Made by a program: the position numbers and the translations under genes. A DNA stretch of 64,000 nt, taken from positions 9,986,728 to 10,050,727 of the forward strand of contig CM037867.1 of assembly GCA_021292105.1 (NCBI GenBank), read 5' to 3'. Every line of letters starts with the position of its first letter. Positions within the stretch are counted from its first letter, which is position 1. This document shows, one piece after another, positions 51,101 through 57,100 of this stretch. Source of the stretch: Anadara kagoshimensis. Its lineage: Eukaryota; Mollusca; Bivalvia; Arcoida; Arcidae. The notes beneath the pieces are model-generated. The model saw only the letters and a program-made list of their open reading frames with translations, was not told the DNA's origin and did not search any database.

Positions 51101-54100
51101 GGTAACAGCTGTTTATGATGATTTACAGATGGTTTATGAGTCGGCTGTCAAATTTGATACAGACCTGCCAGAATTCGGGTAAGTGGCACAGATATTCCAG
51201 CGTTTGGGTAAGTGGGTAACCTACAACCGTTTTTCTAAAACACATGACTGGAGCCAAAATCTGATTTGATGTTTACCTTCTCTATAGTGTTAAACTAATA
51301 ATTATTCTTTTTGTAAAATTTGCTCAGAAAATGGGTAACACGTTTTTGCATTAAATTTTGACAAAATAAAAAACATAATTTCATAATGTATGGTAATGTC
51401 TAGACAAAATTTTGTCTGGAGTAATTCTTCAAAGCCATAAAACACTATTTCCCGAAACTTGATGCATAGCATCAAAATTGACAGGAGATGTGCATATCAT
51501 TAACCTGAGTTGGTTTGCTCATTTTTCTGGGAGTTATAGCCCTTTGAACATAAGTGCAAATCACAAAAAAAAAAGAACCTGCTAGCGGTGGATCCTAATT
51601 CATTGAATTAGTTTTTGCATTATATTTGTAATTTCTGTATGCTCCTTTTGTTTCAATAAACAAAAATTTTAAAAATGCATGATGTTAATTTTAGATTTAT
51701 TTTTGTAGAACACATGGTGGAGCACATATACATGATGATAAAGTAACAGTCACAACACCCACAAAAATGTGGATAAAGGTATTTAATATGATACAGTGCT
51801 TTTGTTTTCCTATAATTACTACTGAATTAAGGTAGTTTCCCCTGGAGAAAAATGACTAAAATTTCCCACTAAAATTTCCAAAAAAACAACAGTGATATAC
51901 AATGTACTAGATATTGTCTCAATATGGCATTTTTGCAGTGAGGATCCTAAGCTATTGCAAGCATGTCATTATGCAGTTTACTGTATTTCAGAACTTCAAA
52001 TTTTACCAATTTAAAAGAAAGAAGGTAGTTTCTTAAAATGTAACAAAATCACTGTGAAAAAATATACTTTGGTATGAGAAAATTTGTTAGTTTGCTTGCT
52101 GAAACTCTGAGCACTCTGTTTTCCTCCATCATCTCGGAGCCGATTTTCTCAATTTAAATCATATCTTGACTTGGGCATTAAAACATAATTTCTGCTTGTC
52201 TCCTCTATATATCTAATGTCAAGTTGCCTAGTTGTTTAGTATCCAAATTCTGATGATTCATATTGAGATACATGGTATGTCGTTAACCAAGAAAATTAAT
52301 TTCATGCTGCTTACTGAATGGGTTTCACTCAGATATGTTGGGGTTTACTTTGCATTGGACTGGCATCCCATTCAAGGTCTCATATCCTCAGCTGTTTCCT
52401 ATCTCTAAAATCAGGATCAGCACCGGTTTGCTGAGCTATTAGGCTGAAGACCGACTTCTGACTTCTTTGAAATCTATATGTTCATTTGCATACATGTGTA
52501 AGCCCAAAAGCAGGCTGCCATACATTTGTTACACTGGGTCCAGGGCCCATAGAAATGAGAAAAATTATATGTATGATGTTTAATTCCATTTGTGACAAAA
52601 TCTAACAGGAAAATGCAGTAAAAATTGGTAGTGAAAAGAAAGCTTATTATGTAAATTGTGAAAATTCACCAATATATTTGGGAAAAATAAAAGTTTTGGA
52701 CCATGTGAATAAATGGGGGGCACTGTGAAAATATGTATCCTTTCACTCTCAATTGTAATTACACATGTGGTGGGTGTAGGCTAAATTGGAGGTGCATTCC
52801 CTTCCTGGAGAATCCTTAGCACCTGGCCTCACTTTCATGGTGAAAGTTCATGCATTTAATCTTATTTGTTTGTTTCAAAGTTTTGACTTTGCTTTAGGAT
52901 TGTGATTTGAACATGGATTAGTATGTTTGTTTTTTATTTCCCATATGTATGTTTTACACAGTATAATGCATTGACATTACATTTTTCAGGCGCTTGAAGG
53001 GGCAACTCTCCTATAAAAAGGAGATTATACGAGATCTTCTCATAATGGAGGTGGCAAATTTGAATTGTGACAGATAGTGTATACAAGATGATTTTTTTCT
53101 GGAATCTTTACAATTAAGGCGAATTAAAAGCTACAATTTGTCATATATATCAGCCCAATACCAGAGAACAATCAAGGAAATTTTGAGAATTTTTTACCTT
53201 GTATTTATGTCTTAAATAGGATTTAAAATTTCGAATTGATTCAATTTGGTTGTTGTTCACACCTGAGTAACCAACAATGATTGACAAGACAAGTGTTTAT
53301 GTTTACCTTGGTAATTGTTATCTGCCACGTGTGTATTTGGCGCCAAAAATCAAAAAAATAAAATCCATTCCTTTCTTTTAATAATCTAATTTATATCCTC
53401 ATTTTAAGTTGAATGATCAAATAATGTTTCCTACTCACAAAAGATAGTCAAGTACAGAAATCAGGTGAATCACAAAAAGAATAAAAGACAAATTTTAAGT
53501 TTGTAATTGCCATAAACATATAAATTAAACTTCATCACTCTCATTTATGTCCGATATTATTTATTCCTGGTGGGTTAAGATATAAAGCTCTAACTAGTTT
53601 CAATACACAAATGGGCATTATTTCACGCCTAGTGATTACAAAGTTATCTAAATTATTTATTTGACAATGCTTCATGTTTTCTTTCTAAGTATTGATGTTT
53701 TCACCAAACTCCTTGATCATCTAAACGTTTTATATAGGTTTTTCCTCAACAAATTATTTTCTTGACCTACTGTTATCTACATGTTGTAATGCATGGAATA
53801 CAAAGACAATGAATACACAGGTTTTGTTGTACATTATGATTATATCGCCATCATTATCATTGTCATCACCACCATTATCATTTCTGTCATTTCTTGAACA
53901 GTGGGTTATTGCTACTTCAATAAGTTCATCTACAGCCTACTTATTGCTTATTTCTGTGTTTCGTATACTGGTATATCTAGTTTTGGCGGGGAAATCGGGA
54001 ATGAGGATTGTTGGTTTCATAACACAGAAAAATTTAGACATGAATTAAAGGTCAAGATAAAATGTATTGCTGGAATGCCATTAGCAATAAGGGTGTGTTA

Positions 54101-57100
54101 CTGTAAGATGACCATAAATTTGAGGTTTAGTGTCTTGTGGTCAAGATACATTGTTGATAATTAAAAGATATAACAATTTAATTTTGACTAATCTAGTGAA
54201 AATATTTCACTTTTATCAGTTGTAGTTGGTAGAATCCCACATGTCATATTATAAACCATCTAATATGAATCAAAACTTTGTGAATTTTTTGTTAGAACAA
54301 AAAATGTCAGGAATGAAATTTTTACTTTGTGTATATATAAAAATAATTTAGGATTAAACTTCTATGGACAAAATTATATACCTAACACCATCTATAGTAA
54401 GTACTTTAATTTGTTAAATCTTTATATTTGCCATGTGAACATTCTATTAACAACATCCAGGTGTCTATAAATAGAACACAGGTAAAGACTAAATTATCAT
54501 AAACACGCCCACAAAACTCGCTACCCCGGTAGCGAAAGTTGCCCCTTTGAAGTACTACTAAACAGAATGCAGAATGGAGGATTTGATTTTAGTAAAGTGA
54601 AAGGTGTATCTGGTGCTGGGCAGGTAAATATGTCACAAAAGATATGTTTAGTTTTGTATTCTCCCATATTGGACAAGGAAATCCCGCATTTTACCTGTGT
54701 AAGAGTTTTTTGTCTTAACCTAGGGTTTTGATTGCCAGAATTTAACATTTAAATGTGTAAATTTTAAATTTTAAATTTGTCAGCCAGTGTGCAGATAGTC
54801 ACCACAAGGGAGTTGCTTTCAATACCTATGGTGCTTTGATTGCTCAGTTATAGCAGAGATTAAAATGTTGATTTTTGTTTATTTCAACAGCAACATGGTA
54901 GTGTATACTGGAAGACAGGTGCTAGAGAAAAACTGAAGAATGTACCATTGCTTCATAGTTTATATGATCAGTTGAAGGTATGGAATCATGGTAATAGGGT
55001 TGATTAACCTATCATCTGATAAACCAAGACTTTTTAACATAAATACTGTAAATTGGTAAATTTTCATGTCAATTAATTTTTTTTGCAAAAATCATCATTT
55101 CAAAATATTCCAATACTTTTATGTTTATATTGTCAGAGGATGGCACATATGTAAATGAACCATATCAAAATAAATTATTCCTAAGAGTTTCAATGCCCGT
55201 TTTGTAACTCTGCGAATTAATGTGAAAATAAAATGAATACAAAAAATTTCCATTTTACAGTATAATTTTCAATGAATATGGAATCACATTAATTGTGTTT
55301 TTTGACAATTTTCCTTAAAAGGAATTGTGACTTAAATGTTTTCCAAAATGTTCATATCAAACATTACTTGGGTATTGATAATGTGGTACACTAACAGACC
55401 CATTGGCTTTTGGCACATGCTTCAGTAATAAACCTTTGTTTCTTTGTTTATTGTCTTGCCTCTTAAGAGAACTTTCCACAGCGGTAGTTCAGTTGTTAGA
55501 TAGCTTGCTCTGTATGTGGGAAGTTGTGGGTTTGAACCCTGGCCAGGTCTGACCCAAGACTTATATGTGGGTAGTGACTGTTCTTTTTCCAAGACTTGGC
55601 ATTACTAAATGAAAGTTGAGGTTCTTTCGTATGGGAATTTAAAATAAACAAAGTACAGTGTCACGACAGGCATGGCACGATAAAGAACTCTGCTGTATAA
55701 TGCCATCAGCACAACACACATGCAAATTTTCTGTACTCTCGCCTATAGCTGGCGATGTCTCATTATAAGTGAAACATTCTTGACTGGAACGTTAAACACC
55801 TTTATTCAACTTAACTCTTTAGAGAACTTTGTCATCATCCATATTGGAACAATTATTTTTGTTAAAGGTTTGATGGTTTAACGTTTTAATGTAAGAAATT
55901 AATTTTTTTTTACTCTTACAGGATTGTTTTAGTATTCCTGACTCTCCTATATGGATGGATGCAAGCACCACTGCCCAGTGTCAGAAACTAGAACAAGAAG
56001 TTGGAGGAGCCATGGTATGTTAATATTGAATGTTGTGGAAAAAAAATTGACGAACAAGACTCATACACACTTTCTTCCCCATGGCAATTTTCAAAAGTTA
56101 TGTATATACAAAATTAAAATTAAAACTAAACAAATAAAAATTTACAATAATAATAAGCTAGTGGTACATACAATCATGATATAACTGAAAGATGGAAGTC
56201 AGAGAGAGAAATTTGACAAAGTAATTAGGGATTTTATTGAAAATCTGGGATATTTGTCACTTAAGTTGGGAGACATATTTGTCGGAAACAAATAAAATTA
56301 ATCAACAATATGACAAGTGCAAAAATTAAAAAAATTAAAAAATTGCATTATGTACAACTTTGATATATTAGAATTTAATAATATACATACACATGTAAAC
56401 AAATTTCTGTTTTGTTTCTCTCTCTGTGAAAACAAGAAAAGATAAACATTAAGTTAAGTTTATGGTGATCAAAGCCCAGGCTTCGATTAGTATCAGATCA
56501 GGAATTTTTTACAATTTTATAATCCTCGATTGGTGTAGTGTAACTAACCATTCATTGTATGTCAAGTTGCAGAAAGTCTAATTATAAAAATGATAAATGT
56601 TTTTGTAGCAATAAAGCTACATGGTATTGTATGTACTATGTACAGTAAAGGGATGTCACTACAAAAAATGTACTGTCACACCTTTTAGGTAAAACAATAG
56701 AGTACTCGCTTTACAAATGGGCAACCCAGGTGTGTTTCTTGGTGTCAGGGGAATATGTTTTTATTGTAACGAGTGTTTATATTCCACTTGGTTTTTTTTC
56801 CAGAGATTGGCTGAAATCACAGGTGCTCGAGCATTTGAACGATATACTGGAACTCAGATTATGAAAATATCACAAAATAATACAGAGGCCTACAATGATA
56901 CTGAGGTTAGTTTAAGTGGTTAAGGATGTAAACTTTTTGGGATTTAGATACTACTTGGTAGCTTAGCTAGTAGACTATTTGCTCCATATATGGAAGATCA
57001 TAAAAGTCAAAAGGTTGTGGAATTTCTGTAATAGAAGTAAATAATAAGGAAAAAAATTTTAAGTGTAGTGATTTTACTTGTTTGAATATTGATTAATAGA

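Follow-up and report, generated by a model that had tools for sequence, protein, structure and literature searches.

The subject of this report is a window of 64 kb of the genome of Anadara kagoshimensis (contig CM037867.1; C11:9986728-10050727), in which the gene XYLB is interrupted, within its exon 4, by an insert with inverted ends. The exon measures 81 bp (27 codons), and once its two fragments are rejoined these codons align with residues 73-99 of human xylulose kinase (PDB 4bc2; the full query of 170 residues gave E 1.3e-54), which bears out the original prediction that an insert with inverted ends splits a 27-codon XYLB exon. The features of the insert and of the exon, in positions of the window, are as follows.

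52990..52997, + strand: left fragment of XYLB exon 4, 8 nt including the left TTGA; its acceptor TTTTTCAG ends at 52989, and ALE.. matches human XYLB
52994..52997, + strand: left target-site copy TTGA, its boundary set by the ends of sister copies
52998..54546, + strand: non-autonomous element, classed below as Kolobok-type, 1,549 bp
52998..53007, + strand: left terminal inverted repeat AGGGGCAACT, 10 bp
53008..53023, + strand: left subterminal hairpin with a 5-bp stem, folded; identical sequence in the longer relative L057
53014..53016, + strand: stop TAA in frame, which would be codon 9 of an exon that keeps the element
54518..54535, + strand: right subterminal hairpin with a 7-bp stem, folded; similar sequence in L057
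54537..54546, + strand: right terminal inverted repeat AGTTGCCCCT, 10 bp
54547..54550, + strand: right target-site copy TTGA, its boundary taken from sister copies
54551..54623, + strand: right fragment of XYLB exon 4, ahead of the donor GTAAAT
54571..54572, + strand: AG that would keep the frame from exon 3 with loss of the first 10 codons, from an enumeration of AG sites

The inverted ends form a perfect pair, which was recovered independently by a repeat search. Exact AGGGGCAACT occurs in the window at the two element ends only, and allowing up to one mismatch gives three matches against 1.82 expected. The maximal direct repeat at the insert is TTGAAG (6 bp), and the XYLB sequence alone leaves the boundary of the element ambiguous. 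It is the sister copies that fix this boundary: the element starts with AGGGGCAACT in 21 of 22 and ends with AGTTGCCCCT in 18 of 22, nearly all of these ends adjoining TTAA, so that the XYLB element extends from 52998 to 54546 and its target duplication is TTGA. A 6-bp target duplication was rejected, since the last two bases of its left copy are the element's own. The original prediction was thus right to call a transposon and to notice the 6-bp direct repeat, but its length of 1,547 bp gives way to 1,549 bp with ends of 10 bp, and its 6-bp target copy to a true duplication of 4 bp. The existence of sister copies also excludes a chance origin of the insert, and an assembly artefact or chimera is highly improbable for a structure in which the inverted ends and the target duplication are exact and the flanks are in frame. 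The two longest frames of the element, when searched for a transposase in Pfam, gave nothing above the cut-off; within 52800-54800 no direct repeat is longer than 30 nt (at 73%), and the element has no long terminal direct repeats; and scans of the window for Rfam families (gathering threshold) and for tRNAs returned nothing.

A search for the element in the host genome, which comprises 1.115 Gb in 36 contigs, gave at least 48 matches, with 40 of 63 candidates scored, and 22 near-full copies besides that in XYLB (L002-L023) were retrieved and aligned. TTAA stands on both sides of 19 of the 22, including L014, which lacks one base at its right end; the three exceptions are L016 (TTAA/TCAA), L019 (CTAA/GTCC) and L020 (ATGG/TTAA). 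Five longer copies (L025-L029) likewise lie in TTAA, and no end pair was found in the partial copies L024 and L030-L033. Two of the longer copies, L025 and L026 (C7:4170212-4172795 and 4239901-4242500), have the same flanking sequence, oriented in opposite directions, at a distance of about 70 kb from each other. This points to an inverted segmental duplication, not to a pair of insertions. That the TTGA at XYLB could be a later mutation of TTAA was also considered and appears unlikely: the identical change would be needed in both copies, and the codon GAA there matches an acidic D in human XYLB.

A decayed frame in L029 served as the lead to autonomous-length relatives, giving 53 genomic matches, from which eight regions were fetched. 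Four of the eight (L057, L058, L059 and L061) bear AGGGGCAACT ends and are flanked by TTAA left and right, as found by an end scan that itself required TTAA. BLAST aligns L062 with both ends of the element, although L062 fails the TTAA-requiring scan, and the match of L060 is weaker; L063 and L064 gave no BLAST match to the element, L063 showing only A-rich chance rows in the end scan. L057, of 3,654 bp, carries a frame that runs for 583 codons without a stop (578 counted from the first ATG), and the frames of the other three are interrupted. The 3.65-kb lineage has moved recently, because L057-L059 are nearly identical (5 differences in 3,647 sites between L057 and L059, and 24 in 3,652 between L057 and L058). 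Read by eye, the L057 frame contains in order TDARH, HAHDTNES, DTWH and HFVESFNN (D...D...DxxH...E), and in Pfam it matches the Mutator-like family PF20700 (E 4.3e-11), with one further match below the cut-off. The XYLB element matches L057 at 93.6% over its first 78 bp and at 73.5% over its last 82 bp, and the left and right subterminal hairpins of L057-L059, which are unlike each other, both recur in the non-autonomous family. Judged by its ends, the target of its family and its relatives, the XYLB element is a non-autonomous Kolobok-type transposon.

Two further reading frames were observed in these regions. In L029, a Harbinger-like transposase that occupies two frames at 6208-7180 (- strand) lies within the long Kolobok-type copy; the one frame searched matches PF13359 (E 1.4e-34). 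In L060, a 495-codon frame at 8016-9500 (reverse-complemented), which we take to resemble a type-B DNA polymerase, lies a few kb from the Kolobok-type relative.

Regarding the age of the insertion, the XYLB copy shows 17 differences in 1,549 positions from the majority sequence of the 23-copy alignment (a majority taken without L023 and including XYLB). Relative to the 22 sisters, the changes private to it are 6 substitutions and two deletions, one of about 4 bp in 3+1 columns and one of 14 bp; these bound the age from above, because part of them may predate the insertion. The nearest copy is L002, at 1.55%, and the FastTree terminal branch measures 0.0085. In comparison with its sister copies, the XYLB insertion is young. 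The divergence value lies within the range of between-haplotype variation in bivalves. Hemizygous regions are widespread in a mussel, as is presence-absence variation of genes, according to the portion of PMC7653742 drawn on here.

The gene itself appears to be present once. A search of the 36-contig assembly with 329 XYLB residues gave 12 matches, all at this locus (13 of 13 candidates scored); neither the window nor the assembly contained a second exon 4 or a second XYLB, so that the second intact exon 4 in this locus which would have spoken against the original prediction did not turn up, and none of the 12 matches is a retrocopy recording a spliced form. The 14 other exon cores are open (exon 1 counted twice, exons 2, 3 and 5-8, plus six later cores, of which three are located past the window in L047), as are three further XYLB stretches recognized by eye at 58.8, 60.8 and 64.4 kb. 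The last C-terminal exon was not found. Apart from the insert, XYLB looks intact as far as examined, the cores having been located by matching open peptides and the exon boundaries read by eye.

The reading favored by these data, to which we assign a probability of about 0.77, is that a recent Kolobok-type insertion at TTGA has created a young, probably segregating loss-of-function allele of XYLB on this haplotype. The related autonomous 3.65-kb element would supply the transposase in trans, and the non-autonomous element would recently have entered exon 4 of the single-copy gene at TTGA, duplicating 4 bp. Transcripts of the insert haplotype would then either run into a stop at the ninth codon of exon 4 or lack that exon, and little or no working xylulokinase would be expected from it, because the lost segment includes SGAGQ of the conserved SGAGQQHGS stretch. 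Several points weigh on the other side. Among the 23 copies, that in XYLB alone has a non-TTAA target in duplicate (TTGA/TTGA), an off-pattern state seen in 0 of 22 sisters. The loss-of-function allele is read from the sequence of a single assembly, and "open" is true of the exon cores, not of each base up to the splice sites. Finally, open exons are unlike a fixed, old null allele, yet the insertion would be too young for this to discriminate.

The possible fates of the transcript can be read from the exon and its insert. With the element retained, the frame closes at the TAA at 53014-53016, nine codons into the exon, and no GT occurs in the exon ahead of it; both the early stop and the missing GT donor at the left junction had been anticipated, as had the in-frame joining of the exon parts, for which removal of 1,553 bp restores all 27 codons. 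This exact excision, which yields the junction ...GCGCTTGAA joined to GTACTAC..., has seven equivalent boundaries, none of them starting with GT or GC. Such boundaries bear on the idea that the element is an Introner, that is, a member of a transposon family that generates spliceosomal introns. Some Introner families do have target duplications and inverted ends, one of them with 4-bp duplications (in the part of PMC9860276 used here), but the XYLB insert offers no GT at its left junction and 0 of 7 suitable boundaries, and among the sisters, where exonic insertions were looked for, the five longest frames across 22 joined empty sites gave no Pfam match above the cut-off and two weak ones below it; we regard this origin as highly improbable.

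Ahead of the stop, the only other donor dinucleotides are GC at 52990, 52992 and 53002 and AT at 53013. Their frame-keeping combinations amount to 14 rows, two of which are degenerate, and none of these donors, in our judgment, comes near the donor consensus. Among the AG sites from 54440, where the enumeration started, to 54623, only 54572 keeps the frame from exon 3, with loss of 10 codons, besides the exon's own last bases; an in-frame stop lies just before 54486. Skipping of exon 4 would remove 27 codons in frame (81 nt, phase 0). A spliceosomal work-around, in which exon 4 is skipped or exon 3 is joined to 54572 and a partly active protein results, would therefore preserve the frame by either route, as would the GC-AG pair 53002/54572, and the exon with its insert, at 1,634 nt, is long for exon definition. 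Skipping would, however, drop 27 residues that include the conserved SGAGQ, the acceptor at 54572 is not preceded by a long pyrimidine tract, and the sequence of the GC donor, GGG|GCAACT, deviates from the commonly held donor consensus, so that we consider such a work-around improbable.

A further route, of the kind that the original prediction named as its alternative, would restore the enzyme at the RNA level: the inverted ends would pair in the pre-mRNA, the element would be cut out, and RTCB would ligate the exon parts. SOS splicing is a process that involves paired inverted repeats, CAAP1 and AKAP17A. When 1,754 nt are folded, the ten pairs between the ends form with a mean pairing probability of 0.946; the genome holds the RTCB family (5 exon matches) and the CAAP1 family (1 partial match, 38 of 63 positions); and SOS splicing of transposons with RTCB ligation is on record in the section of the review PMC13247085 consulted. 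Shuffled controls pair too, at 0.95 or above in 10 of 12 interior shuffles and at 0.89 or above in 11 of 12 with the hairpins kept, and for this reason the predicted end pairing is a property of the GC-rich 10-mer and not evidence of selection; moreover, the inverted ends are merely 10 bp long and lie 1.5 kb apart. We consider rescue of this kind unlikely, and likewise the specific claim that XYLB is still expressed through an inverted-end-guided, RTCB-dependent excision of the Kolobok insert from its mRNA. If true, it would be a natural case of SOS splicing that affects a housekeeping gene in an animal that is not a model species, and one that involves an element of a TTAA superfamily, not Tc1/mariner.

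Under the preferred reading of a young loss-of-function insertion, the event is rather ordinary: a single young transposon has entered a metabolic gene, as is to be expected in large transposon-rich genomes. What is unusual is the TTGA target, the location in a coding exon and the possible removal at the RNA level. The transposon call and the null-allele reading of the original prediction both hold up, and the family, the 4-bp duplication and the exact extent are additions to it; its alternative, removal at the RNA level by an unusual route, would be the less likely of its two readings. The locus also provides useful handles, namely a Kolobok-type family that has defined ends and includes recent copies of autonomous length, and a clean non-TTAA insertion. 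As a natural exon insertion, moreover, it could be informative through the mRNA of carriers, which would reveal whether transposons are removed from RNA in an animal that is not among the usual models.

The remaining XYLB exons located in the window are the following.

44633..44674, + strand: exon 1 core, second copy within a tandem duplication
50113..50154, + strand: exon 1 core, nearer copy
51102..51176, + strand: exon 2 core
51710..51778, + strand: exon 3 core, followed by the donor GTATTT
54891..54977, + strand: exon 5 (QHGSVYWK...)
55922..56011, + strand: exon 6 core
56804..56905, + strand: exon 7
57487..57618, + strand: exon 8
60108..60185, + strand: later exon core (...TGDNP)
62599..62712, + strand: later exon core (ISLGTSD...)
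63466..63576, + strand: later exon core (NGSITRERI...)

Exon 1 lies in a tandem duplication with a 961-bp period (44511-45122, and 45472-45563 plus 50079-50606; 97.6% identical over 621 aligned positions), and there are therefore two possible first exons. The second copy of this duplication is occupied at 45564-50078 by a long terminal repeat (LTR) element with frames on the - strand, presumably Gypsy-like, which was inserted very recently, since its 186-bp LTRs are identical and it is flanked by a CTGAT duplication. The XYLB introns contain four related repeats of about 330 bp, 76-88% alike (55476-55808, 57661-58003, 61239-61563 and 62936-63268), which we take to resemble tRNA-derived short interspersed elements. 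Elsewhere in the window, 1-1724 and 4956-5874 are tandem arrays whose units measure about 195-204 and 377-390 bp and which apparently represent one satellite on opposite strands (strands read by eye), and 40545-41679 (- strand) holds broken frames that presumably derive from a mariner-like transposase.

Comparison with known systems places the element as follows. With the substrates of SOS splicing it shares the configuration of a DNA transposon with inverted ends in a coding exon, and it differs in being known from DNA alone and in the shortness of its inverted ends. Mutator elements generate target duplications of about 9 bp, which are not seen in this family despite the PF20700 match. The TTAA target duplication of the family is shared with piggyBac, whose termini are CCY (non-RR). 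The XYLB element, in contrast, has ends that begin 5'-AG, and RR/YY ends set Kolobok apart from piggyBac in the portion of PMC9587614 available to us. The 4-bp target duplication and the inverted ends recall those of some Introner families (PMC9860276, within the part already cited), whereas the XYLB junction has no donor site. KolobokP elements, which have Kolobok ends and are abundant in bivalves (PMC9587614, same portion), carry terminal direct repeats that are some 450 or 660 bp long and are missing from the XYLB element. The frog T2 and XKol elements differ in that the two ends of the present element bear different subterminal hairpins and its family's transposase matches the Pfam "Mutator" entry PF20700. 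The T2 miniature inverted-repeat transposable elements nevertheless have AGGRR ends, and one full frog element, XKol Tr2, has AGGGGAACTATCATGA (in the excerpt of PMC6004289 used), with both of which the AGGGG start agrees. Kolobok elements at large are characterized by TTAA duplications and 5'-RR...YY-3' ends, with a C/DxxH motif common to hAT, P, MuDR and Dada, as far as the cited portion of PMC9587614 describes them. Their transposase is of the DDD/E type, with C/DxxH lying between its second D and its last E. The XYLB copy itself sits at TTGA, and its membership rests on the sister copies; at the family level the likeness extends to the TTAA duplication (19 of 22 sisters, as well as L057, L058 and L059), to termini AG...CT that satisfy the 5'-RR/YY-3' pattern, and perhaps to the transposase, since the frame of one relative, read by eye, holds a putative DxxH motif.

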